Shown piece after piece: positions 28,067 through 40,124 of a stretch of DNA of 64,000 bases. The notes beneath the pieces are model-generated. The model had not been told where the DNA came from, did no database searches, and saw nothing but the letters and a program-made list of their open reading frames with translations. Every line of letters starts with the position of its first letter. The stretch's first letter is position 1. The stretch comes from Nitrosomonas supralitoralis (GTDB lineage Bacteria; Pseudomonadota; Gammaproteobacteria; Burkholderiales; Nitrosomonadaceae): positions 1 through 64,000 of the forward strand of contig NZ_PXXU01000014.1 in assembly GCF_003011925.2 (NCBI RefSeq), in the 5' to 3' direction. The position numbers and the translations under genes were made by a program.

Positions 28067-28392
28067 AATAAGCCCTTAAATTGGTTAAAGAAACATAAAG
28101 AAAACAGCAATGACACTTGTACTGCCTTCCTTTTTTATGGTAGTCAGACAAAGTATCTTCGTCAAGGTATTATCCTTTCGATGCTATGAGCATAGCTCCT
28201 TAATACTTAAGGGCGAACGATCATTGTTTAGTCTAATTCTAATTGAAGTACAGCTAAATTCCTGATCGCTCTCAATTTATTAATCATAAATTCAGGTTAA
28301 ACTAGCCTTTACAAGAACAGCATAATCAAATGTTTTCTTACTGTATTTGATAAATAATTACCACTTGATACCATATCTCATACTAATACGTG
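28067..28392. promoter_or_regulatory. Divergent promoter region, cytochrome P460 / DUF1614 gene
   Basis: 326 bp without a gene. It must contain promoters for the two divergent genes. The region is AT-rich; no operator with clear dyad symmetry was assigned. Confidence 0.4.
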
Positions 28393-29061
28393 ATGAAAAA
28401 TTATTTTTCCCCGATTCACCTGTTATTTTTTATTGCTTTGCTTGGCATCTTAGTAATATTGATCCAGGTAGAGCTATTATCCTTTGCTTTCGTAAAACTT
28501 GGATTGCCGCCTGATTTCGGATTGATGATACTGTTTCTTTCCTTACTCGGCAGCGCCGTAAATCTGCCGGTTACAAGAATTAAAAACAGTGCAACGGGGC
28601 AGTCCTCCACACAGCCTGTTTATAGAGGCTTGCTTAGAATACCCGTGCAACCGATCCATAATGAAACGCAGATTTTCATCAATCTAGGTGGTTGCTTGAT
28701 ACCGGTGACACTATCGATTTACTTATTCTCCAATAGCGCCCTGAGCTTATCTTCCACTCTGCTGGGGATCGCTATTATCAGCAGTGTGAGCTATGTTTTC
28801 AGTCGCCCGATTCAAGGACTTGGCATCGGCATGCCGATTTTGATTGCTCCAATCTGTGCGGCGTTAGTGGGATTATCAATCAGTCCGGAACAAAGCGCTC
28901 CGCTGGCGTATATAAGCGGCACCTTAGGAGTATTGATTGGCGCAGATTTACTACGCATGAAAGATATTTACCGACTTGGCACACCGTTTGCTTCGATCGG
29001 AGGAGCAGGTACATTTGACGGAATTTTTATCACCGGTATTGTAGCGGCTCTGCTGGCTTGA
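28393..29061 (+). CDS. DUF1614 family membrane protein
   Basis: 222 residues, seven or so membrane helices. DUF1614-like features are 'GLMILFLSLLGSAVNLPVTR' near residues 42-61, 'INLGGCLIPVTLSIYLF' near 95-111 and 'IGGAGTFDGIFITGIVAALL' at the end. The function is unknown. The ATG at 28393 is used; a GTG lies one codon before it. Neither has a good ribosome site. It is 70 bases upstream of hoxF on the same strand and may be co-transcribed, though no role in hydrogenase is established for the family. Confidence 0.7.
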   Translation: MKNYFSPIHLLFFIALLGILVILIQVELLSFAFVKLGLPPDFGLMILFLSLLGSAVNLPVTRIKNSATGQSSTQPVYRGLLRIPVQPIHNETQIFINLGGCLIPVTLSIYLFSNSALSLSSTLLGIAIISSVSYVFSRPIQGLGIGMPILIAPICAALVGLSISPEQSAPLAYISGTLGVLIGADLLRMKDIYRLGTPFASIGGAGTFDGIFITGIVAALLA

Positions 29062-29131: not shown

Positions 29132-30895
29132 ATGAAGAATTCATGCCAGCACAGTTCTTTACATTTACCGCAGGAGCACTTTCTGCATCGACTGCATGCG
29201 TTGCAACAGGAATTTCTGCATATCTCACCACAGGCCATGCAACAGGTTGCGACAGAATTTAATTTGCCGCTCAGTCAAGTAGCTGCGGTAGTGGCGTTTT
29301 ATTCGTTCTTTTCCACACAACCATGTGGCCGTTTTCACATACTGTTCAGTAATTGCACCAGTTGCGGCTATCTGTCAGATGAACAAAACCTGATGCAATT
29401 GTTGAGCCAGCAGTTGCATGCCACTCCCGGCCAAACGCGCGCGGATGGATTGGTCAGCATTGACGAAACTTCCTGTATCGGGTTATGTAATCAGGGCGCA
29501 TCGTTGCTGGTCAATGGCATACCTCTTACTCATTTGAGTCCGGACAAAATTGCACAAATCGCGCAGCGGATTACAGCCCATATACCGACGGCTGAGTGGC
29601 CAGTTGAGTGGTTTGAAATAAATGACACAATCTATCAACGCAACCTTTTGCTGACAGCACCGCTTGTGCCATATGACGCGCTACAAAAGGCAATAATTCA
29701 CGGTGCAGCGGAAACATTGGCAATCATCCAACAGTCCGGCTTAAATGGTCGCGGCGGCGCCGGATTCAATACAGGTCAGAAATGGCAGTTGTGCCGCGAG
29801 GCGCCCGGTGATACACATTATGTCGTGTGCAACGCCGACGAAGGTGAGCCCGGCACGTTTAAAGATCGCGTGTTACTTCGCGATCACGCCGAAGCACTGT
29901 TTGAAGGCATGTCTGTGTGTGCTTTTGTTATCGGCGCAAAAAAGGGCTTTGTCTATCTGCGCGCGGAATACCGCTATCTGCAATCTCACCTGCAAGCTGT
30001 TCTTGCACGTCGGCGAACTCAAGGATTGTTGGGAAGGCACATTCTGAATCATTTGGATTTTCACTTTGACATTGACATTGTCGTGGGTGCAGGTGCCTAT
30101 ATTTGCGGCGAGGAATCGGCGCTGATCGAATCACTTGAAGGCAAGCCCGGCATCCCACGTATCCGTCCGCCGTTTCCAGTCACTCATGGTTATTTAGGGC
30201 AACCCACAGTAGTTAATAATGTTGAAACCTTGATTGCTGCAGCACATATCGTCGAGCATGGCAGTGGATGGTTCAATTCCGTCGGCACCGAGAAATCAAA
30301 GGGGACCAAAATTCTCAGCGTCAGTGGTGATTGCCAGTTACCGGGAATCTACGAATATCCGTTTGGCGTACGCATTCAACGAATTCTGGATGATTGTGGC
30401 GCGCAGAATGTTCAAGCGGTGCAAATAGGCGGTCCTGCTGGAAAACTGATCAACGTGACTGAATTCGACCGCACTATCAGTTTTGAAGATATATCCACCG
30501 GTGGATCGTTTCTAGTCTTTGGACAGCCACGTGATTTGCTGACAATTCATCGTAATTTTGCGCATTTTTTTGCACATGAGAGCTGCGGTTTTTGTGCTCC
30601 TTGTCGCGTCGGCACTCAACTTCTGAAAAACAATCTGGATAAAATCGCCGAAGGACGCGGCACAACTTATGATATCGAAGAACTGAAACAACTCAGCTCT
30701 TTGATTCAGCATCACTCGCACTGTGGCCTGGGGCATACTGCCGCCAATCATGTAATGGACAGTTTGCAGCATTTTCCGCAAGCTTTTACAGCCCATCTGA
30801 AACAGCATTTCACCGCACAATTCGATCTTGATCAGGCACTTAAAAATGCTCGGCAGATTACGCACCGCGACGATGCTGCAGCTCATCTGGATTAA
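29132..30895 (+). CDS. hoxF: NAD-reducing hydrogenase diaphorase subunit HoxF
   Basis: 587 residues, close to the usual 600. The N-terminal 150 form a HoxE/NuoE-like thioredoxin-fold [2Fe-2S] domain ('FFSTQPCGRFHILFSNCTSC', 'ETSCIGLCNQGASLLVNG'). The NuoF-like part has the NAD/FMN-binding 'GLNGRGGAGFNTGQKW' near 205-220, 'NADEGEPGTFKDR' and 'GAGAYICGEESALIESLEG', then the [4Fe-4S] motif 'ESCGFCAPCRVGT' near 485-497. It passes electrons between HoxU and NAD+. The gene stops 3 bases before hoxU. It is the flavin subunit of a group 3d bidirectional [NiFe] hydrogenase in the cytoplasm. Confidence 0.95.
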   Translation: MKNSCQHSSLHLPQEHFLHRLHALQQEFLHISPQAMQQVATEFNLPLSQVAAVVAFYSFFSTQPCGRFHILFSNCTSCGYLSDEQNLMQLLSQQLHATPGQTRADGLVSIDETSCIGLCNQGASLLVNGIPLTHLSPDKIAQIAQRITAHIPTAEWPVEWFEINDTIYQRNLLLTAPLVPYDALQKAIIHGAAETLAIIQQSGLNGRGGAGFNTGQKWQLCREAPGDTHYVVCNADEGEPGTFKDRVLLRDHAEALFEGMSVCAFVIGAKKGFVYLRAEYRYLQSHLQAVLARRRTQGLLGRHILNHLDFHFDIDIVVGAGAYICGEESALIESLEGKPGIPRIRPPFPVTHGYLGQPTVVNNVETLIAAAHIVEHGSGWFNSVGTEKSKGTKILSVSGDCQLPGIYEYPFGVRIQRILDDCGAQNVQAVQIGGPAGKLINVTEFDRTISFEDISTGGSFLVFGQPRDLLTIHRNFAHFFAHESCGFCAPCRVGTQLLKNNLDKIAEGRGTTYDIEELKQLSSLIQHHSHCGLGHTAANHVMDSLQHFPQAFTAHLKQHFTAQFDLDQALKNARQITHRDDAAAHLD

Positions 30896-30898
30896 ATC

Positions 30899-31636
30899 AT
30901 GATGTCAGTAATCGAAAACACGCTTCGCATTGACGGTCAGGAAATTCCGTTCACACCGGGACAAACGATCATGGATGCCGCATTAGCTGCTAAGCTTTAT
31001 ATTCCGCATTTATGCCACTATCCCGGTTTGTCGCCGAGCGGCAATTGCCGTTTATGCATAGTGGAAATTGGAAATCGCAGCGTCGCCGCATGCATTACAC
31101 CAGCGGCAGCAAGTCAAGAAATCCACAGCAACACACCGGAATTGAACCAAGCACGCAAAGCGCTCACGCAAATGCTATTCGTGGAAGGCGATCACATTTG
31201 CCCATCGTGCGAAAAAACCGGTAATTGTAAACTGCAGGCTATGGCTTATTATCTCGGCTTGCTGGACGATCACTTCCCACCGTTTTATCAGCGCCGCGAA
31301 ATCGATGCATCACACCCCGATATCCTGCTTGATCGCAGACGCTGCATCCTGTGCGATTTATGCGTACGCGCCAGCAGCGAAGTGGACGGAAAAAATGTGT
31401 TTGCTATTGCCGGACGCGGCACACAGGCCCATTTAATCGTCAATTCCCCGAGCGGTAAACTGGTCGACAGCCCGATAGCGAAGACCGATCTGGCAGCGAC
31501 CATCTGCCCGGTTGGTGCGATTTTGATCAAAGAACAAGGTTATCAAATCCCAATTGGTCAACGCATTTATGATCAACAAACGATTCGAGAAACCGGTTTG
31601 CAGGAAAACATCACGAAGCAACACGATGAAAAATGA
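30899..31636 (+). CDS. hoxU: NAD-reducing hydrogenase subunit HoxU
   Basis: 245 residues. It resembles the N-terminal part of NuoG: a [2Fe-2S] ferredoxin domain with 'HLCHYPGLSPSGNCRLCIVE' near 37-56, a His-Cys3 [4Fe-4S] site 'GDHICPSCEKTGNCKLQ' near 97-113, and a further cluster region 'RRCILCDLCVRAS' near 148-160 with 'CPVGAI' near 202. It links HoxF to the hydrogenase module HoxYH. In intact operons hoxY follows at once; here the stop overlaps (ATGA) the start of a broken hoxY fragment, and the intact hoxY lies 6.2 kb away. Confidence 0.94.
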   Translation: MMSVIENTLRIDGQEIPFTPGQTIMDAALAAKLYIPHLCHYPGLSPSGNCRLCIVEIGNRSVAACITPAAASQEIHSNTPELNQARKALTQMLFVEGDHICPSCEKTGNCKLQAMAYYLGLLDDHFPPFYQRREIDASHPDILLDRRRCILCDLCVRASSEVDGKNVFAIAGRGTQAHLIVNSPSGKLVDSPIAKTDLAATICPVGAILIKEQGYQIPIGQRIYDQQTIRETGLQENITKQHDEK

Positions 31637-31817
31637 CGATTGAATACGCGACCAAACAGAAAATTAAAATCACGACCTCGTCGCTAGCCAGTTGCTTTCG
31701 TTACTACATGCACTGCTCGACATGCATGAACACTGAGTTGGTGTGCAGCAATTCAAGCCGATAGCAGACAAACTAGGTCGTTGGTTGCATTGCGGCCAGA
31801 TTCTGCGGTTGCGAGGA
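31633..31817 (+). pseudogene. Decayed hoxY-hoxH fragment after hoxU
   Basis: The first about 110 bases match the start of the intact hoxY at 37838 codon for codon: 'MTIEYATKQKIKITTSSLAS' here against 'MTTEYAIKHKIKIATTSLAG' there. The cluster cysteine motif GCFGC has become SCFRY, and the frame stops at TAG near 31768. From about 31743 the DNA instead follows intact hoxH near 38678-38755, including TTGCATT..GGCCAGATTCTGC. The rest of hoxY and most of hoxH are deleted. It overlaps the hoxU stop by 4 bases, just as a functional hoxY would. It cannot make a hydrogenase subunit. Confidence 0.85.
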
Positions 31818-31920
31818 AAAACTTACTCAAACGAGCGATCAGTCATTTAAATCTATTCACACATGTGTATCTTCACATCGAAACACAGAAACTTTGAACT
31901 ATTCGGGTTAATTTCCATTT

Positions 31921-34900
31921 TTAAGTGGGATATTTTAATTTAGGTAAAATTTTACTGGGTCTACCGAAGTTATACCCCTGCGCAAGATCTATACCCAGCT
32001 TTTTAATCATTTTAAAAGTATCTTCATCTTCAACATATTCCGCCACGGTTATTTTACCTAGCCCATGTGCTACATCTACCATAGCTTTAACAAAAACCTG
32101 GTTGTCCCGATTATTATGTAGATCACTGATGAATAAGCCATCTATCTTCAAGATTTCCACGCCTAAATACTTCAGATAACCAAAGGTAGAAAAACCGCTG
32201 CCAAAATCATCCAGGCAGACTTTACAACCTGCTTGATGAATCGATTCAATAAAACGTTGAGCATCCTGAATATCGGAAACGGCTGCCGTTTCGGTCAATT
32301 CAATAATCAATCGACTTGGCTCGACGTTTCGCTCCACCAACAACTGCCGGATATACTGCGGCAAAGAAGGTTCATCAAATGTTCGCCCGGAAATATTGAT
32401 CGCCAGTGACGGCATATTGGAGTCATTGGCCAATTTCTCGATACTCTGTTTCACGACCCAGCGATCAATATCCAAAATTTGACCACTTTTCTCTGCGATC
32501 GGAATGAATTGACCTGGCATGATCAAGTGATCCGGTTGCTCCAGATCGCGCATTCTGATCAGCACTTCAGCATGGCTGAGCGTTTTATCACTCGTTAAAT
32601 ATACGCCTTGAAAATGCAGCTCGAACAGATCTTGTTCTAAAGCCTGGGCAATCCGGTTACGCCACGTCATTCGTCGTAACATAGCCTCCGAATCATCACG
32701 TGACGAATCATAGATTGCCCATGTATTTTTGCCCTGAGTTTTAGCCTGATACATGGCGGTATCCGCATGCGCGATCAAATCTTCGGTGGTTTCCCCGTGT
32801 TCTGGAAAGATCGCCACACCCAAGCTACTCGTCAGACGAATATTGGTGCCGTGAAAACGCAATGGAATTGATGCAATCGCAGTGACAATACGAGATGGTA
32901 AAGCACTGATATCTTCGCCTGGATTGATAAGACTTAATATGGCGAACTCGTCACCGCCCAAACGAGCGAAAATTTCGATTTGCCGAATTATGCTGGTTAT
33001 TTCTCCGGCGGCTCTAACAAGCACTGTATCGCCCGCACTATGTCCGAAAGTGTCGTTGATATATTTGAAGTCGTCCAGATCAAAATACAGCAAAGCAAAC
33101 TTACCCTTGTTACGCAGAGACTTCGCGATCAGAGATTCAAGTTGCTCCTGAAAACGATGCCGATTGTATAGACCGGTTAAAGGGTCACGCTCGGCTAGAT
33201 ATAGCAGTTGTTGAGCAGTTTGGCGTTCTTGAGTAATATCTTCATAAATCCATAATCGTCCCAGGATCTTCCCTTCTGCATCAGTAACCGGATAGGAAAG
33301 CTGAGTTAGCATGCGACCATCGCTTAGTTCGAGCTCGAAGCGCTCGCTAATTTCATGAGTATTCATGATGTTAAGAACAAACTTAGAAGCATGCGTCGGC
33401 TGTGCAAATCGTTCGGTGGATCGCTCCAGCACGATTTTTGTGGGTAACCCTGTCAGATCGTCATGTTCGTTGATTAACCACATTTTCAAGAAAGCCGGGT
33501 TCACGTACTCAACACGGCGCTCGTTGTCTTCAAACAGAATGCCAATATTCATGGCTGCAAGCAGTGCACCCATGCGGCGTTGTTCGCGTTCCGCCAGAAT
33601 GCGTAGGTCACGTTGATGCTTTTCGGACAACTTCAAGTCTTCCAAAGAATGGCTCAGTGCTTCTTCACTTCGCTGTAAAGCGATTTCCCGGGTTTTGCGT
33701 TCTTCAATATCAGCGTGTGTGCCCAACATGCGCAACGGGCGATTTTGGTCGTCGTATTCAACCATCTTGCCAAGCGACAATATCCATTTCCAGGTACCTT
33801 GTTGAGTAAGTTGCCGAAATTCCACCTGAAAATTTTCACTCAAACCGTTGATGTAATCCTGAAAGATTTTATATACCCGCTCACGATCATCCGGATGCAG
33901 CCGATCTCTCCATTTACTGTGGGTTTCCACAAATGTATCCGGGACATAGCCTAGCATCAAAGCATATTCTGGGCTTACTAAGACCTCACCGTTTTGCACA
34001 TTGAGATCCCACAAGCCTTGATTGGCCGCAGTTAGCGCCAGACGCAGACGCGATTCGCTCGCATGCAACTCTCGATCGGCACTCTTGCGCAAAATCTGGA
34101 TACCGGTGATCGCGCATGACATCAGCATAATGGTGCCGACAAAAATACACAGAATCAAATGACCTAATGAAGTAGGATTTTTTGCAAAGGGTCCCAAACC
34201 CTGGGCAGTACCCCAGGCTGCAATCATGGAAATGATCGTTGCCGCCAGCACAGCCCCAAATAGACCCAAGCGCAAACTTGCCCAAATTAATGGGGGAAAT
34301 ACCATAAAAGCCAGTGATAATTTAAATTCTCCGATTGACAGAACACTTCCGAATACTGACCACGCAATAACGGCACAGATAGTTATAATTAAGACGGATT
34401 CCACATTCGCAGCTTCTTGGCGAATAGACTTATTCTTAAAATGAGCCGCCCAGACCAGTATTAACGGAGCAAAAATCAGTATGCCCACGATATCGCCAAA
34501 CCACCAACTAAGCCAGGCTTGCTGTATCTGATCTGCTATCAGGTTACCGCTAGTAAATAAAGCCAACACACCAAAGCTAGAGGACAGAAGCATGCTAAGC
34601 GGCACGATGAAGATAAAAGCCACTATATCGCGACCGCGTGTAAAGTCATGGTGAAAACCCACCGCTTTTTTAAGGAGTAACGCACATGAAATCGGCCCTA
34701 GCGTGTTACCTAATGCAATAATGCTAGCAGTGGATAACATAAGGTCGCCCGTGGTCAGATTGACTAGGAGTGCACCAAAAAAGATGCCAGGCCAATATCG
34801 CCATCCCCAGATCATGAGGGCTGCAAGAGCTATTCCGGTTGGAGGCCAGAATAAGGTGATGTTCGATCCCATATAGGGAAACATCAACCCCAATTTTCCA

Positions 34901-34977
34901 GTTATAAAATATGCCGCGGCCAATACAACAATTCCTAACGCCTGCGCCCCCAATGTTGCAATTTTCTTTTTGTTCAT
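31921..34977 (-). CDS. MASE1-PAS-GGDEF-EAL membrane signalling protein
   Basis: 1018 residues. Residues 1-300 form a MASE1 sensor with about eight helices. A PAS domain near 305-430 ('RLALTAANQGLWDLNVQNGE') and a second near 460-580 follow, then GGDEF ('FARLGGDEFAIL', motif near 674) and EAL near 775-1010 with 'EVLIRMRD', 'DDFGSGFSTFGYL' and 'KIDGLFI'. Such proteins make and/or break cyclic di-GMP. The GGDEF motif is intact, so cyclase activity is plausible. The EAL tripeptide reads EVL, common in active enzymes. The I-site position reads RQIE rather than RxxD, so product inhibition may be weak. It is encoded alone on the minus strand inside the segment that splits the hox genes. Confidence 0.9.
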   Translation of the reverse strand: MNKKKIATLGAQALGIVVLAAAYFITGKLGLMFPYMGSNITLFWPPTGIALAALMIWGWRYWPGIFFGALLVNLTTGDLMLSTASIIALGNTLGPISCALLLKKAVGFHHDFTRGRDIVAFIFIVPLSMLLSSSFGVLALFTSGNLIADQIQQAWLSWWFGDIVGILIFAPLILVWAAHFKNKSIRQEAANVESVLIITICAVIAWSVFGSVLSIGEFKLSLAFMVFPPLIWASLRLGLFGAVLAATIISMIAAWGTAQGLGPFAKNPTSLGHLILCIFVGTIMLMSCAITGIQILRKSADRELHASESRLRLALTAANQGLWDLNVQNGEVLVSPEYALMLGYVPDTFVETHSKWRDRLHPDDRERVYKIFQDYINGLSENFQVEFRQLTQQGTWKWILSLGKMVEYDDQNRPLRMLGTHADIEERKTREIALQRSEEALSHSLEDLKLSEKHQRDLRILAEREQRRMGALLAAMNIGILFEDNERRVEYVNPAFLKMWLINEHDDLTGLPTKIVLERSTERFAQPTHASKFVLNIMNTHEISERFELELSDGRMLTQLSYPVTDAEGKILGRLWIYEDITQERQTAQQLLYLAERDPLTGLYNRHRFQEQLESLIAKSLRNKGKFALLYFDLDDFKYINDTFGHSAGDTVLVRAAGEITSIIRQIEIFARLGGDEFAILSLINPGEDISALPSRIVTAIASIPLRFHGTNIRLTSSLGVAIFPEHGETTEDLIAHADTAMYQAKTQGKNTWAIYDSSRDDSEAMLRRMTWRNRIAQALEQDLFELHFQGVYLTSDKTLSHAEVLIRMRDLEQPDHLIMPGQFIPIAEKSGQILDIDRWVVKQSIEKLANDSNMPSLAINISGRTFDEPSLPQYIRQLLVERNVEPSRLIIELTETAAVSDIQDAQRFIESIHQAGCKVCLDDFGSGFSTFGYLKYLGVEILKIDGLFISDLHNNRDNQVFVKAMVDVAHGLGKITVAEYVEDEDTFKMIKKLGIDLAQGYNFGRPSKILPKLKYPT

Positions 34978-35488
34978 CTGTTTAATTATAAAATCTCATA
35001 TCACAACATTTCGACAATAAAGCCATTAGCTTTATATATTTAATGATGCCCAGGCATTATTTTTTCCAGTGCGAACTATACAGACTATGAAGCTTTAATA
35101 AAATAGTCATCATGCACTGATAAACTTAGGTTATTTTAACAATTTTGGTACGCAGCTCCTGCCATCATCTTTGATCTTCAATTCATCGAACGGCAAACTA
35201 AAATAACTCTGCTAACAACGATGAATCTGATTGAGGTAGGCGTGCGCTGAAGGAAATAAGCATGTGTCGCGCGAATTTAGGTTCAAAACTGTAACTCGAT
35301 TATTAGCGTTATTGTTTTTCTGCGATATATGATATAAAGAGTATGCGTGTTAAGAGTCATGTTATGTAAAAGATGTAACCGACCGGATTACTTTTACATA
35401 GCAGTTGCATACGCAGCTAGCTTGCTAGTACGATCTTTTCGAGTATGATTTGACATTATTTATCTTTTACAAAATAAGGAGAATGGTC
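34978..35488. promoter_or_regulatory. Divergent intergenic region upstream of smbP
   Basis: 511 bp without a gene, between the signalling protein (minus) and smbP (plus). It holds a notable inverted repeat at 35364-35399 and the smbP ribosome site 'ataaggagaatggtc'. Confidence 0.45.
35364..35399. repeat. Inverted repeat upstream of smbP
   Basis: ATGTAAAAG/CTTTTACAT arms (9 bp) around an 18-base centre that itself has GTAA/TTAC arms. It lies about 90-125 bases before the smbP start and may be an operator or leader hairpin. Confidence 0.45.
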
Positions 35489-35842
35489 ATGAAAGCGATA
35501 TCAACTATTATTGCAATGGGAATATTGGCGTTATTCTTGAGCGCTCAAGCCTCTGCATCGGATGCGCCTGAGAAGATGAAAGCAATGGAGCATATTGATG
35601 AAGCTATCAAGCACGGAAAAATGGGGCATGCCAAAGAGTTGCTCGAACATGCCAAGGAAAGCAGAAATGATGCCAAAGCTGCACTGGCAGCGGGCGCAGA
35701 TGCTCATATGGAACAAGCTGTCAAACATTTAGATGAAGCTATAAAACATGCTGAAATGGGACATGCCGATGAAGCAACGAAACACGCGGAAGAAGCGCAC
35801 AGTCATATGCATGAATCAGGTGGCAGAACACACAGTTATTAA
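35489..35842 (+). CDS. smbP: Small metal-binding protein SmbP
   Basis: 117 residues: a signal peptide (MKAISTIIAMGILALFLSAQASA), then a histidine-rich helical protein of heptad-like repeats such as 'HIDEAIKHGKMGHAKELLEH' and 'HLDEAIKHAEMGHADEATKH', ending 'HSHMHESGGRTHSY'. It matches SmbP of Nitrosomonas europaea as I know it, a periplasmic protein that binds several copper or other divalent ions. The ATG at 35489 is chosen for the signal and the 'aaggag' site; earlier in-frame starts lack both. It may buffer copper for this copper-demanding organism. A strong hairpin follows. Confidence 0.9.
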   Translation: MKAISTIIAMGILALFLSAQASASDAPEKMKAMEHIDEAIKHGKMGHAKELLEHAKESRNDAKAALAAGADAHMEQAVKHLDEAIKHAEMGHADEATKHAEEAHSHMHESGGRTHSY

Positions 35843-35857
35843 TTTTGGCAACAAACC

Positions 35858-35887
35858 ATGTGCCCCCGGCATCACCGGGGGTACATA
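35858..35887. terminator. Hairpin between convergent smbP and regulator gene
   Basis: GC-rich stem CCCCCGG/CCGGGGG with a 5-base loop CATCA, extended by ATGT/ACAT on the outside. It lies between two converging genes and probably stops transcription from both sides, though T-runs are poor. Confidence 0.65.
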
Positions 35888-35896
35888 TGTAAATTT

Positions 35897-36541
35897 CTAA
35901 TCGGCATGGTTCGCAATCGAAAAACAACAGTAATTTCCCTTTTTGACAATACATTCTTTATGCTGAATATCAGTTTTTAACAAAGCAGCCAGGAAACTCA
36001 GGTCGAGAGCACAAAATCCCTGGTGCTCCTCAGCAAGTTTATAAAAAATACAGTTATTCGCAACAATCTCGGCATAATTCTCCGAAATCCTTTTCACACT
36101 TGCATCATAGCCAAGCTCACACATGATGGCCACCACTTCACCAAGCCTGTCTGCAGATGATAGCTGTTTCGACATTCGATTCTCAAACTCTCCAGCCATT
36201 TGTTCTCCAAGTGACCGCAAACACTGCTGTGATTCCTGCTCGCCCAGATTTTTATCAACCCAGGAAAGAAGTAACTTTGCAATAAACGAATAGCGTCTTT
36301 GGAAAAGTTCTAAGCCACTGGGAGACAATGAATAAATTTTACCTGGCCTGCCTCCTGTACTTTCCAGTGTTGCGCTCTGAATAAAACCGCTACTTCCAAG
36401 ACTGGATAGATGCTGGTTTACTGCATTACGAGAGATAGATAATAAATGTGACAACTCATCCACCGTAAGTCCATTACGGTGCCGAAGTAAAGCCGTGACT
36501 AATGATTGCTGACTCTGACCCAGAAACGATAGAGTGGACAT
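35897..36541 (-). CDS. HTH regulator with C-terminal cysteines (SufR-like)
   Basis: 214 residues. A winged helix near 10-75 ('LTVDELSHLLSISRNAVNQH', 'STGGRPGKIYSLSPSGLELF') resembles SufR/ArsR-type repressors. The C-terminal part carries Cys164-x12-Cys177-x19-Cys197-x7-Cys205-Cys206. SufR-like regulators ligate a [4Fe-4S] cluster with such cysteines; the first C-x12-C spacing agrees, the rest differs, so cluster binding is only likely. It is divergent from two small membrane-protein genes 120 bases away, which are the natural targets. It contains no kinase or other enzymatic domain. Confidence 0.72.
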   Translation of the reverse strand: MSTLSFLGQSQQSLVTALLRHRNGLTVDELSHLLSISRNAVNQHLSSLGSSGFIQSATLESTGGRPGKIYSLSPSGLELFQRRYSFIAKLLLSWVDKNLGEQESQQCLRSLGEQMAGEFENRMSKQLSSADRLGEVVAIMCELGYDASVKRISENYAEIVANNCIFYKLAEEHQGFCALDLSFLAALLKTDIQHKECIVKKGNYCCFSIANHAD

Positions 36542-36661
36542 TTTAAATTTTTGTAAAAATTGATCTTGGCAGTTTTGACATATTTTTATTGCAAAAGTCT
36601 CAAAATATAAAGTAAAGTATAAGTCCTTACATTATTAATTATAGGGAAAGAGGGAAAATTC

Positions 36662-37000
36662 ATGCTTACATATTTAATCATAGTTTTAGCAATTGCGGCT
36701 GTCGGCGGTGTTGCATTAGCCATGAAAGTATTTTCCGGTCAGTTGGCGCCGTGGCCTTTATCCATTATTCATGCTTTATTAGGTGCAACAGGCTTGGTCA
36801 TGTTGATTATGCTGGTTCTGGAAGGTTCAGGAGATGCGCGTTTAACGGCTGCACTTGGCCTGCTTGTTGTCGCTGCATTAGGTGGATTCTATCTTGCTTC
36901 AATACATGTAAAAGGTAGCGTTGCACCAAAAAATGTAGTGCTCATCCATGCGGGCGTAGCAGTGGCAGGCTTCCTTACGCTCCTGAGTTTGTTTATTTAA
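36662..37000 (+). CDS. Small four-helix membrane protein
   Basis: 112 residues, almost entirely four hydrophobic helices: 'LIIVLAIAAVGGVALAMKVF', then 'IIHALLGATGLVMLIMLVLE', 'AALGLLVVAALGGFYLASIH' and 'VVLIHAGVAVAGFLTLLSLF'. Two histidines (in IIHALLG and LIHAGVA) sit inside helices and could bind haem or metal (inference). I do not recognise a named family. The ribosome site 'agagggaaaattc' supports the ATG. The DUF2231 gene follows after 17 bases, so the two form an operon divergent from the cysteine-rich regulator. Confidence 0.72.
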   Translation: MLTYLIIVLAIAAVGGVALAMKVFSGQLAPWPLSIIHALLGATGLVMLIMLVLEGSGDARLTAALGLLVVAALGGFYLASIHVKGSVAPKNVVLIHAGVAVAGFLTLLSLFI

Positions 37001-37017
37001 TAAATAAAGGTAAAAAC

Positions 37018-37458
37018 ATGAAACACCCCATCCATCCGATGCTAGTTCATTTTCCAATAGCAACCTGGTTTCTTGCAACAATAGCAGACGTTGCCAGTCT
37101 ATTTACAAATGAACAAGTAGGTTGGGTCGCTGGGGTGTTACTTGTCACTGGAACAGTCACGGCGTTGTTTGCTATGATGACCGGGCTATTAGAACTTGGA
37201 AAAATTGACCCACAAAGCCCTGCAATCAAGATAGCGAATCAACACATGATACTTATCATGATCAGCTGGTCTTTTTATGCGGTCAGCTTGTTTCTGCGGC
37301 TGAATGGCACAAATCTTGAACAGCCCGGTTTAATTGCCATTTCTTTTTCCATTATTGGATTCATTTTTCTTTGTTATGCAGGATGGATGGGAGGAAAACT
37401 TGTCTATGAGCATGGTGTTGGCATCCATTATCTAAACAAAGAAAAATTAAATCAGTAG
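37018..37458 (+). CDS. DUF2231 family membrane protein
   Basis: 146 residues with four helices. It begins with the typical 'MKHPIHPMLVHFPIATWFLA', whose histidines are conserved in DUF2231, then 'LLVTGTVTALFAMMTGLLEL', 'NQHMILIMISWSFYAVSLFL' and 'CYAGWMGGKLVYEHGVG'. The family resembles haem-binding four-helix membrane proteins, but no function is proven. It lies 17 bases after the four-helix gene and shares its promoter. Redox or haem function under the SufR-like regulator is a reasonable hypothesis, not shown. Confidence 0.8.
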   Translation: MKHPIHPMLVHFPIATWFLATIADVASLFTNEQVGWVAGVLLVTGTVTALFAMMTGLLELGKIDPQSPAIKIANQHMILIMISWSFYAVSLFLRLNGTNLEQPGLIAISFSIIGFIFLCYAGWMGGKLVYEHGVGIHYLNKEKLNQ

Positions 37459-37772
37459 CTGCACAATGCACTTTTCCTTGTAATACTTGTGATCTGGTTT
37501 ATTGACTGCTCCGCTAGAGTCTAATTGTAATACATACAGCATAGCCTTTCATCCGGTTTTCTGAGTTTGGTTAAACAAGAGGATCAAGACTATACTTTCT
37601 CTCAATTTATCAGTTGCTCGTCATGACCGAAAGATTATCTTCATTGATACATAGCGGTCTCTACCAGATTATCCACCCCTTTTAAGTCCATTCATGAAAA
37701 GTTCTTCATAGCTCTTTTTGATTGCCATGCTATTATTTAAGATCTGAGCATGCTGGGCAAACTAGCAGTGCA
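37459..37772. other. Intergenic between DUF2231 gene and the hoxU remnant
   Basis: About 310 bp with no gene. It presumably contains the promoter now used for hoxYH, unless transcription reads through from the DUF2231 gene. I saw no terminator with a good T-run. Confidence 0.35.
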
Positions 37773-37837
37773 GTTGTGATAGCACAGATCCTGGAAACCG
37801 GTTTGTAAGAACACATCGCCGAGCAGCAAGATGAACA
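37773..37837 (+). pseudogene. Decayed 3' end of hoxU before the intact hoxY
   Basis: The 48 bases before the hoxY ATG mirror the last codons of intact hoxU: GAAACCGGTTTG followed by TAAGAACACATCGCCGAGC here against CAGGAAAACATCACGAAGC in hoxU. Similarity fades upstream of about 37773. The frame is broken by TAA. It is therefore a remnant of a second hoxU. Confidence 0.75.
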
Positions 37838-38395
37838 ATGACGACTGAATACGCCATCAAACACAAAATAAAAATCGCGACCACATCACTGGCCGGTTGC
37901 TTTGGTTGTCACATGTCTTTTCTGGATATGGATGAATGCTTGGCTGGCTTGCTTGAGCAAATTGAATTTGACCGTTCGCCGTTCACTGATATCAAGAAAT
38001 GTGGGTCATGCGACATTGGTTTGATCGAAGGTGGCGTATGCACAACCGAAAATGTGCACGTGTTACGCGAATTCCGTGCCAACTGCACCACGCTAGTGGC
38101 TGTCGGCGCTTGCGCGATCAATGGCGGTGTGCCCGCGATGCGCAATTATTTTGACTTGCAGGAATGCCTTCAGGAAGTCTATCTGAACGGAGTCGGTGTC
38201 ACGAACCCTCAAATTCCCGACGATATTGAATTGCCGCTGCTGCTGGACAAGGTCTACCCCATCAGCGAAGTGGTGCACATCGATTATTTTCTGCCCGGTT
38301 GCCCACCATCCGCCGATGCTTTCTTGCAACTGCTGGAGTCGCTATTGGCCGGACAGAAACCGATCATTCAAAAATCGCAGTTGCATTACGATTAA
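37838..38395 (+). CDS. hoxY: NAD-reducing hydrogenase small subunit HoxY
   Basis: 185 residues, the short cytoplasmic-type small subunit without signal peptide. It carries the proximal cluster cysteines in 'TSLAGCFGCHMSFLDMDE' near 14-31, then 'CDIGLIEGGVCTTENVHVLR' near 63-82, 'VAVGACAINGGVPAMRN' near 89-105 and 'YFLPGCPPSADAFL' near 150-163. It relays electrons from the nickel-iron site in HoxH to HoxU/HoxF. The upstream sequence is a broken copy of the hoxU end, so it now lacks its normal upstream neighbours. It is followed 5 bases later by hoxH. Confidence 0.94.
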   Translation: MTTEYAIKHKIKIATTSLAGCFGCHMSFLDMDECLAGLLEQIEFDRSPFTDIKKCGSCDIGLIEGGVCTTENVHVLREFRANCTTLVAVGACAINGGVPAMRNYFDLQECLQEVYLNGVGVTNPQIPDDIELPLLLDKVYPISEVVHIDYFLPGCPPSADAFLQLLESLLAGQKPIIQKSQLHYD

Positions 38396-38400
38396 TCGTT

Positions 38401-39879
38401 ATGGAACCAGATAAATCCTCATCACCACCGGTCACCCGCCGCATCGCCATCGACCCGGTCACTCGCGTCGAAGGACACGGCAAAATCACACTGATGCTGG
38501 ACGAAAACAATCACATCGTCGAGGCACGGTTGCATATTGTCGAGTTTCGTGGTTTTGAGAAATTCATCCAAGGCCGTCCGTATTGGGAAGTTCCGTTTCT
38601 TGTGCAACGGTTGTGCGGCATTTGCCCAGTCAGCCATCAATTGGCAGCAGCCAAAGCGGTGGATCAAATCGTGGGGATGCAGCAACTCACGCCAACAGCT
38701 ACCAAGTTGCGCAGATTGTTGCATTTTGGCCAGATTCTGCAATCGCATGCACTGCATTTTTTCCATCTCTCCTCTCCTGATTTTCTATTCGGCTTCGGCA
38801 GTAACCCGGCACAGCGTAATATCGCCGGTGTATTGGAACATTATCCGGAAATCGCATTGAAAGGCGTCAAGTTGCGCAAATTCGGCCAGCAAGTCATCGA
38901 AGCCATTACCGGCAAGCGCATTCACGGCACCGGCACCGTACCAGGCGGCATGAACAAACCACTGACGCCCACCGAACGTGATACGTTACTCGCAGATGTC
39001 GATAATATTCTGCAATGGAGCGGGGAAGCGCTGTCGCTGAACGAACACATTCACACTGAGCACCCGGAGCATCGCGATTTCGCCACGCTGCATAGCCATT
39101 TCCTCAGCATGACCGGAACCAGCGGCGAACTGGAGTTCTATCATGGAGGATTGCGCGCGCGTACCGCCGATAGCAGCGTTATTTTCGACCAATTCAACTA
39201 CTGCGATTATCAGCACATCCTGCGTGAAGAAGTGCGTCCGTGGAGCTACATGAAATTCCCCTACTTCACCGCATTAGGCACGGAGCAAGGCTGGTACCGC
39301 GTTGGTCCGCTGGCTCGCATCAATAACTGCGATAGCATTTCTACCCCGCTGGCCGAAAATGCCCGCCAGCGTTTCAAGGCATTTGGCCAAGGCGGATTAG
39401 TGCACGATACGCTCGCATATCACTGGGCACGCATGATTGAAGCACTGCACTGCGCCGAATCAATACACGCTTTGCTACACGATGCAGACATCACCGACAC
39501 CGAATTAATGGTTGACAAAGGTGAACACCAGTCGCAAGGCATCGGTGTCATCGAAGCACCGCGCGGCACGCTGTTCCATCACTATCAGGTCAACGCAGAA
39601 GGCTTGATCACCCAAGCCAATCTTATCGTATCAACCACCAGCAACAACCAAGCCATGAATGAATCGATACGCGCCGTTGCGAATCAATATCTGGATGGCC
39701 AGGAAATCACCGAAGCATTATTAAATCATCTCGAAGTAGCGGTACGCGCATATGATCCTTGCCTTTCCTGTGCCACACATGCACTGGGTAAAATGCCGTT
39801 GCAAGTCACGTTGCAGGATATGAACGGCAGTGTAGTCGATCAATTAACCAAAGGAATGGCGGGAGAAATAACCCGATAA
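38401..39879 (+). CDS. hoxH: NAD-reducing hydrogenase large subunit HoxH
   Basis: 492 residues from the ATG at 38401, chosen because it directly follows hoxY; the frame is open further upstream but that part is hoxY out of frame. The nickel ligands are '[11 protein letters not shown]' near 63-73 and '[20 protein letters not shown]' near 459-478. The sequence continues about 30 residues past the second cysteine motif; this tail is normally removed by a HoxW protease after nickel insertion. No HoxW or Hyp maturation gene is in the window, so they must be elsewhere. Together with hoxF and hoxU it would form a complete group 3d hydrogenase. Confidence 0.94.
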
Positions 39880-39890
39880 CCGGAAATTTC

Positions 39891-40091
39891 TTACTTGCGT
39901 ATCCACCACAATATCAATGTCAACACTGCCGAGAACAACAATCCTGTCATTAACGGAAAATAAAAGCTGAAATTCTCGCGTTCAATATGAATATCGCCAG
40001 GCAAGCGACCTAATGGCAATTGCGACAACCAAGGCCACAATAAGCCCAAAACAAGTAGCAGGATTCCTAGGGAAATAAATAATTGTTGCAT
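39891..40091 (-). CDS. DUF2905 family small membrane protein
   Basis: 66 residues from the ATG at 40091: 'MQQLFISLGILLLVLGLLWP', then 'LPLGRLPGDIHIERENFSFY', the DUF2905 hallmark, and a second helix 'MTGLLFSAVLTLILWWIRK'. It has two membrane helices and unknown function. The frame extends to a TTG 18 bases earlier without a better ribosome site. It converges with hoxH, 11 bases from its stop. Confidence 0.8.
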   Translation of the reverse strand: MQQLFISLGILLLVLGLLWPWLSQLPLGRLPGDIHIERENFSFYFPLMTGLLFSAVLTLILWWIRK

Positions 40092-40124
40092 GGCGTATAT
40101 TGTAATCAAATTAATTAAATCGAT

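Follow-up and report, generated by a model that had tools for sequence, protein, structure and literature searches.

What sequence of events could leave the genes of one enzyme in two halves, each bordered by the debris of the half that is intact elsewhere? The question is raised by the hox genes, encoding the four subunits of a HoxFUYH hydrogenase, in a 64,000-nucleotide (nt) stretch of Nitrosomonas supralitoralis DNA (RefSeq assembly GCF_003011925.2, contig NZ_PXXU01000014.1, positions 1 to 64,000 of the forward strand), the whole of which is hereafter called the window. Here, intact hoxF and hoxU are followed by the remains of hoxY and hoxH, and, on the far side of a gap, a remnant of the 3' end of hoxU is followed by intact hoxY and hoxH (Table 1). 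An earlier note, made from the sequence alone, had described this layout and attributed it to a duplication of at least the hoxU 3' part, hoxY and the hoxH 5' part with complementary loss. The layout was confirmed by blastn, nhmmer and random controls, and the proposed history is the best fit to the remnants found here and in related genomes: an old local duplication was probably followed by complementary loss.

The remnants can be recognized at the DNA level from either side of the split. Comparison of the left and right sides by blastn returned 143 bp at 78% identity (E 3e-29), spanning the hoxU 3' end and the hoxY start, and a further 63 bp at 73% (E 7e-6) in hoxH, the clear similarity that the earlier note had anticipated. 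Local alignment paired 31563-31730 with 37770-37936, and 31744-31806 with 38678-38740. The observed scores were reached by none of 1000 random sequences drawn from dinucleotide frequencies in any of four tests (the joined hoxU-hoxY segment, the hoxH fragment, the hoxU remnant alone at 37770-37835, and the hoxY remnant alone at 31637-31730). Likewise, a 24-base degenerate pattern derived from the two hoxU ends matched only at 31589 and 37794 when up to two mismatches were allowed, with no match expected from 100 shuffles. Remnant extents, taken from DNA profiles (nhmmer), lie within about 10 bases of those first proposed.

Table 1. Features of the split hox locus and its surroundings (window coordinates).
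Feature	Position	Strand	Remarks
DUF1614 membrane protein gene	28390..29061	+	left neighbour of hoxF; Pfam PF07758
hoxF	29132..30895	+	intact; HoxE/NuoE-like N-terminal domain fused to NuoF-like part; Pfam 2Fe-2S_thioredx, Complex1_51K, NADH_4Fe-4S
hoxU	30899..31636	+	intact; Pfam
hoxY remnant, decayed 5' end	31634..31746	+	hoxY nt 2-115; still overlaps hoxU stop; nhmmer E 6e-13
hoxH remnant, decayed	31729..31809	+	hoxH nt 260-340; a deletion has fused it to the hoxY remnant; nhmmer E 6e-8
Non-hox flank, hoxH remnant to MASE1 gene	31810..31920	.	shared with G038; hoxU of G055, G037 and G077 enters its MASE1-proximal part
MASE1-PAS-GGDEF-EAL protein gene	31921..34977	-	Pfam
Block missing from gap of G055 and G037	35096..37607	.	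four genes; Pfam, NCBIfam
Small metal-binding protein gene	35450..35842		within four-gene block
SufR-like helix-turn-helix (HTH) gene	35897..36541	-	within four-gene block
112-aa protein gene	36662..37000		within four-gene block
DUF2231 gene	37018..37458		within four-gene block
Candidate extended -10 element of hoxYH promoter, TGCTATTAT	37728..37736	+	TGCTAT(T/C/G)AT pattern
hoxU remnant, decayed 3' end	37766..37837	+	hoxU nt 661-732; directly 5' of hoxY; nhmmer E 0.01 (match 37766-37835)
hoxY	37838..38395	+	intact; Pfam Oxidored_q6
hoxH	38401..39879	+	intact; Pfam NiFeSe_Hases
DUF2905 gene	39891..40109	-	right neighbour of hoxH; Pfam PF11146

All four subunits are still encoded, in two places, as the note had held: each of the window's hox genes is an open frame with the expected domains. 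Between the window and the related genome G055, the ratio of non-synonymous to synonymous substitution rates (dN/dS) was 0.12 for hoxF and for hoxU, 0.067 for hoxY and 0.066 for hoxH, and pairwise values of 0.04-0.15 were obtained for all four genes across six pairs of split genomes; both the hoxFU half and the hoxYH half are kept by purifying selection. The maturation gene hypD is present and intact, and no second hoxH that would make this copy irrelevant was found in searches of the genome (3.75 Mb, 239 contigs). HoxH had its best PDB match in the large subunit of an NAD-reducing hydrogenase (5xf9_D of entry 5xf9; residues 6-460, E 2.7e-177), and Pfam domains above cut-off were identified for the diaphorase proteins HoxF (with its fused HoxE-like domain) and HoxU, as well as for the small subunit HoxY. 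NCBIfam equivalog cut-offs for bidirectional hydrogenase were missed for both the HoxU model, its best-scoring family (177 bits against a cut-off of 333), and the HoxE model (75 against 224), which is taken to reflect distance from the members of those models. Judged from its sequence, the enzyme is an ordinary NAD-reducing [NiFe] hydrogenase, HoxFUYH, of what we take to be group 3d.

The same split recurs among relatives. Of 85 Nitrosomonas genomes, the window's included, that were searched with hoxH, hoxU and hoxY, 55 hold hox genes, a genome being counted if at least one of the four genes matched over more than 75% of its length. Thirty of these possess hoxFUYH (at most 2.5 kb from hoxU to hoxY and from hoxY to hoxH), 17 have hoxFU separated from hoxYH, five have hoxFUY separated from hoxH, and three are partial (hoxYH only in G032 and G038, hoxFU only in G043). 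One of the 17, G058, was not leaned on as a link between stages (two equal-size nuoG-like hits, 7% contamination). The halves lie 3.5-9.0 kb apart in ten of the split genomes, 85-920 kb apart in three (G068, G017 and G036; ~737 kb in G017) and on different contigs in four (G016, G018, G058, G077), and each of the three far-apart cases has a near relative with close halves (G015, G046 and G035, respectively). DUF1614 stands to the left of hoxF in 14 of the 17, while DUF2905 occurs within ~1.5 kb of hoxH in 13 of the 17 and in seven of 19 contiguous loci examined. In a further set of 80 loci with named records, which overlaps in part with the 85 genomes, 60 were contiguous, including those of Gallionella, Nitrotoga, Mariprofundus, Thiothrix and Methylococcaceae, five were split, and 15 lacked hoxU or hoxY in the locus. 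Given these 60 loci and the contiguous hoxFUYH of genomes that the species tree places outside the split clade, contiguity is most likely the ancestral state. One qualification to the earlier note is that the split layout is common to a clade and not particular to the window genome.

The species tree was reconstructed from eleven proteins of the complex I (nuo) region in 45 genomes and takes in 16 of the 17 split genomes (all but G058); G052 was removed from the final species test owing to its long branch and odd position, and the outgroup named for the tree was not clean, with G048 and G050 on its side. One clade of 23 genomes (support 99.9) comprises the 16 split genomes, four with partial or decayed hox genes (G032, G038, G043, G084) and three with contiguous operons (G044, G056, G020); N. 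oligotropha (Nm45, Nm75) and strain Is79 belong to the split clade. Within it, the window groups with G055, G037 and G077 in the hoxFU, hoxYH and nuo trees alike (support 100). Also observed were contiguous hox-hyp operons in G061 (L062) and G028 (L063) that fall within the split group in the hox trees and outside it in the complex I tree, a conflict that hints at transfer.

Remnants were recovered beyond the window genome. Left hoxY remnants, following hoxU or occupying the place where hoxU stood, were detected by nhmmer in G017, G046, G058, G038 and G084, and the hoxU pieces 5' of hoxY in G017, G046 and G038 (nhmmer E 0.01, 2e-7 and 0.02) all start near hoxU nt 347. When hoxU similarity before hoxY was compared with 300 shuffles, none scored as high in the window genome, G046, G017 or G038, and a faint trace was seen in G077 (1/300) and G037 (4/300); the similarity was not significant, with 30 to 189 of 300 shuffles as high, in G058, G055 (55/300), G033, G035, G036, G018 and G032. 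A junction is also shared at a distance: in G038, which the nuo tree does not place as sister to the window genome, a hoxH piece covering nt 1-340 ends at the same nucleotide as the window's remnant, and the flank that follows, which likewise leads to the MASE1 gene, matches the window's at 30 of 38 bases (0/1000 random sequences as high).

The earlier note had reasoned that close relatives with the same layout and no remnants would speak against a duplication. The sister genomes G055, G037 and G077 do lack the left remnant, but after hoxU residue 238 they match the part of the window's non-hox flank nearest the MASE1 gene. Against the window flank and the G038 flank, respectively, the random sequences as high numbered 0 and 134 of 1000 for the hoxU end of G055, 1 and 0 for G037, and 7 and 2 for G077, whereas the same ends showed no match to a normal hoxU end (314, 731 and 750 of 1000 as high for G055, G037 and G077). 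Because hoxU in these sisters reads into the MASE1 flank, their left remnants will have been removed by a deletion, which answers the objection raised in the note.

The duplication seems old, since the left hoxY remnants of the G017, G046, G038 and G084 group are at a similar distance from the genome's own hoxY, where present, and from that of other species; the G046 remnant, for example, is 75.5% identical to its own hoxY, 75% to that of G072 and 74% to that of G015. This estimate rests on that group, the window's hoxY remnant being too short and too diverged to place. In the same four genomes (L090, L037, L051 and L101, respectively) a truncated hoxY frame of 68-83 codons separates the end of hoxU from a spermidine-synthase-like gene. 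It is open in all four, with dN/dS of 0.24-0.50 compared with 0.04-0.11 for intact hoxY. In 2000 runs of a rough neutral simulation the four frames never all remained open at full branch length, and did so in 16 runs at half and in 116 at a quarter of that length. Because its stop overlaps the start codon of the next gene, this frame may serve translational coupling.

The history that we favour would begin with a single hoxFUYH operon, carried by the ancestor from which one clade of Nitrosomonas descends. A local duplication, covering the hoxU 3' part, hoxY and the hoxH 5' part at the least and possibly the whole operon, would have generated two nearby copies, of which the left kept hoxFU and lost hoxYH while the right kept hoxYH and lost hoxU (and hoxF too, if it had been copied). 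Other genes would have ended up between the copies, in the window the opposite-strand MASE1-GGDEF-EAL gene and a four-gene block, and the four subunits would still be encoded, now from two transcription units. The remnants, the clade-wide layout, the junctions shared in some lineages and the purifying selection on both halves are the observed part of this account; by inference, the duplication would have been single and tandem, and the HoxFUYH complex would still assemble.

What can be read directly between the halves is the presence of opposite-strand genes, namely the MASE1 and HTH genes, and these make a shared hoxFU-hoxYH transcript in the window very unlikely, from which it follows that hoxYH has its own promoter. 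The two halves may accordingly be regulated separately, and their stoichiometry may have changed, as the earlier note had suggested. For this promoter we propose the element TGCTATTAT. Its pattern, TGCTAT(T/C/G)AT, precedes hoxY by ~28-109 nt in 13 of the 19 right-hand copies and sits at the start of the hoxU piece in G017, G046 and G038; strain Is79 has it, and N. oligotropha Nm45 lacks it. The element by itself is not rare in the window, and a consensus promoter scan did not list it. A more speculative extension, which we regard as doubtful, is subfunctionalisation at the operon level, in which control of the diaphorase module HoxFU became separate from that of the hydrogenase module HoxYH, and a new hoxYH promoter arose from dying hoxU coding sequence as the Tyr-Tyr codons TATTAT became a -10 element. 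If true, the split would leave lineages free to employ or discard either module on its own, and G043, with hoxFU alone, suggests as much.

Several observations weigh against so simple a history. The contiguous genomes G044, G056 and G020 sit inside the split clade, and a clade of split and partial genomes only is rejected (nuo p 2e-4, hoxFU p 8e-4, hoxYH p 1e-68), which can be accommodated only by assuming transfer, reversal, retention of a full copy or repeated splitting. The tree of hoxFU further rejects a grouping of the split genomes with G044, G056 and G020 that leaves out G028 and G061 (p 0.0026). None of the 85 genomes was found to hold two complete hox copies. Left and right copies, compared by eye, agree in their hoxY N-terminal type within lineages, which would fit lineage-specific duplications or gene conversion equally. 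Of the 13 right-hand copies bearing the TGCTAT(T/C/G)AT motif, 9 show a hoxU similarity that one or more of 300 shuffles equalled, and in seven of these 30 or more did so; six of the 19 copies lack the motif. Past DUF2905 the right flanks also differ: several contiguous loci have hyp genes there, and many split loci have lipocalin and other genes. The history must therefore also have involved transfer, reversal or repeated splitting, and we are less sure of a single duplication event than of duplication and loss themselves, because contiguous genomes nest in the clade and hoxY start types agree within lineages.

An alternative account couples the duplication to insertion: a hox fragment with cargo, for example on a circular molecule, would have integrated into the operon by homologous recombination, more than once, with a direct repeat of the target arriving with the insert. 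This is possible, if on balance we doubt it. The gap genes differ between lineages (METY, SPEE and tail-collar genes, MASE1 and others), and in G038 the MASE1 gene lies between hoxH nt 1-340 and hoxH nt 1-1181. G032 (L046) has a hoxY 5' remnant, ~7 kb and then intact hoxYH on a single contig, which could represent a further duplication or insertion within the same operon. In addition, close copies of the MASE1 gene (83-84%; 83% in G038) were found, besides the window's, only in G055, G037, G077 and G038, all in the hox gap (5/25 genomes, E 1e-200, considering at most the best 32 candidates of each), and weaker relatives (58-68%) lie elsewhere in G015, G017 and G033 among the matches listed. 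However, tandem duplication followed by insertion would look identical, and no integrase, transposase or plasmid gene was detected by Pfam among the five gap proteins scanned (one without any hit). Moreover, SPEE adjoins a recJ-like gene (named by eye) in the window's own clade, and the gap genes of other lineages therefore need not come from outside.

Rather unlikely, in our estimation, are several independent, lineage-specific duplications and splits of a fragile operon in place of one ancestral event. The nested contiguous genomes, the rejected split-only clades and the matching hoxY start types would all fit such a course, as would the other kind of split (hoxFUY and hoxH) in five other genomes; against it stand the hoxH nt-340 end and flank common to the window and G038, the hoxU start near nt 347 common to G017, G046 and G038, and the TGCTAT(T/C/G)AT element in most right copies. 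Displacement by transfer, with hoxYH re-acquired from a related bacterium while the resident hoxYH decayed, would be in keeping with the conflict of some hox trees with the nuo tree (G028, G061), but appears improbable given the agreement of all three trees on the placement of the window and the hoxU end and DUF2905 neighbour retained by its right copy. We see just as slim a chance that the enzyme is non-functional and its layout a step of decay: G043 has hoxFU and no hoxYH that we could find, and both G038 and G084 combine broken hox genes with the lack of an intact hypD, but the window's four genes are open and under purifying selection, with hypD intact.

An operon probably divided by duplication and complementary loss can be set beside known systems. 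The NAD-reducing [NiFe] hydrogenase HoxFUYH of known structure (PDB 5xf9, 5xfa) has the same four subunits, whose genes form two transcription units in the window rather than one. Among cyanobacteria, hoxEF and hoxUYH are reported to be separated by several kb in Synechococcus PCC 6301 and Nostoc PCC 7120 (PMC2674450, PMC4463661), likewise in two clusters; however, the break there falls between F and U, compared with U and Y in the window, and remnants of a duplicated half, as seen in the window, are not mentioned in the relevant passages of those papers. For Nitrosomonas sp. Is79, which we take to be G017 and which has the same split, scattered hydrogenase genes were noted in 2013 (PMC3764937) in a passage that does not describe a duplication, remnant or mechanism, and duplication followed by splitting offers an explanation for that scatter. 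In the literature searched, no description was found of a duplication as the origin of the split hox genes in Nitrosomonas, and as far as that literature shows, the duplication scar and its spread through the clade are new here. Operon break-up is usually inferred from gene orders alone; the present locus provides a readable intermediate with both duplication scars, and related lineages display different stages, some already without one module. Under duplication-degeneration-complementation, two gene copies undergo complementary losses such that both are needed for one function, and the window would represent a case in which the unit copied is an operon of several genes and the losses take entire subunits. 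Separate regulation of two modules of one enzyme complex thereby becomes testable in ammonia oxidisers.

Closer inspection of the gap revealed that the MASE1-hoxY spacers of G055 and G037 match the window only at ~35059-35095 and ~37608-37761. Because only these two edges match, the four-gene block between them has either been inserted in the window or been lost from its sisters. Within the block, the metal-binding protein gene adjoins the SufR-like HTH regulator gene on the opposite strand. A number of candidate signals were set aside. In the window's clade SPEE could not serve to mark the same event, being located elsewhere with no significant hox trace beside it (best E 0.22). An MBL gene near hoxYH, considered as a sign that contiguous genomes had lost a right copy, was present in 16 of the 17 genomes examined for it and was not used. 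The idea of a second, divergent hydrogenase within the gap was rejected because the weak hoxY and hoxH hits in relatives are truncated remnants. Finally, homology between the regions upstream of hoxF and of hoxY, as a trace of a whole-operon copy, was not found in five of six genomes (40 to 246 of 300 as high; G033, 3/300).

Other fates of the hox genes were also identified across the genus. G043 (L095) retains hoxF and hoxU, with no hoxY or hoxH found in its 89% complete, single-contig genome. G038 (L051, L071) and G084 (L088, L101) have broken hydrogenase genes, and hypD is likewise broken in G084 and could not be found in G038; to judge from these genes, the hydrogenase is in the process of being lost in both. 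The second kind of split, with hoxH distant from hoxFUY or on another contig, occurs in G002 (L096, L069), G003 (L098, L082), G004 (L099, L081; one TAG within the hoxH match), G014 (L100, L083) and G073 (L097, L078), which form one group in both hox trees. Although hoxH was reported as not found in the announcement of the N. communis Nm2 genome (PMC4714114), G002, which we take to be that strain, has a full-length hoxH far from hoxFUY, and the gene was therefore probably overlooked.

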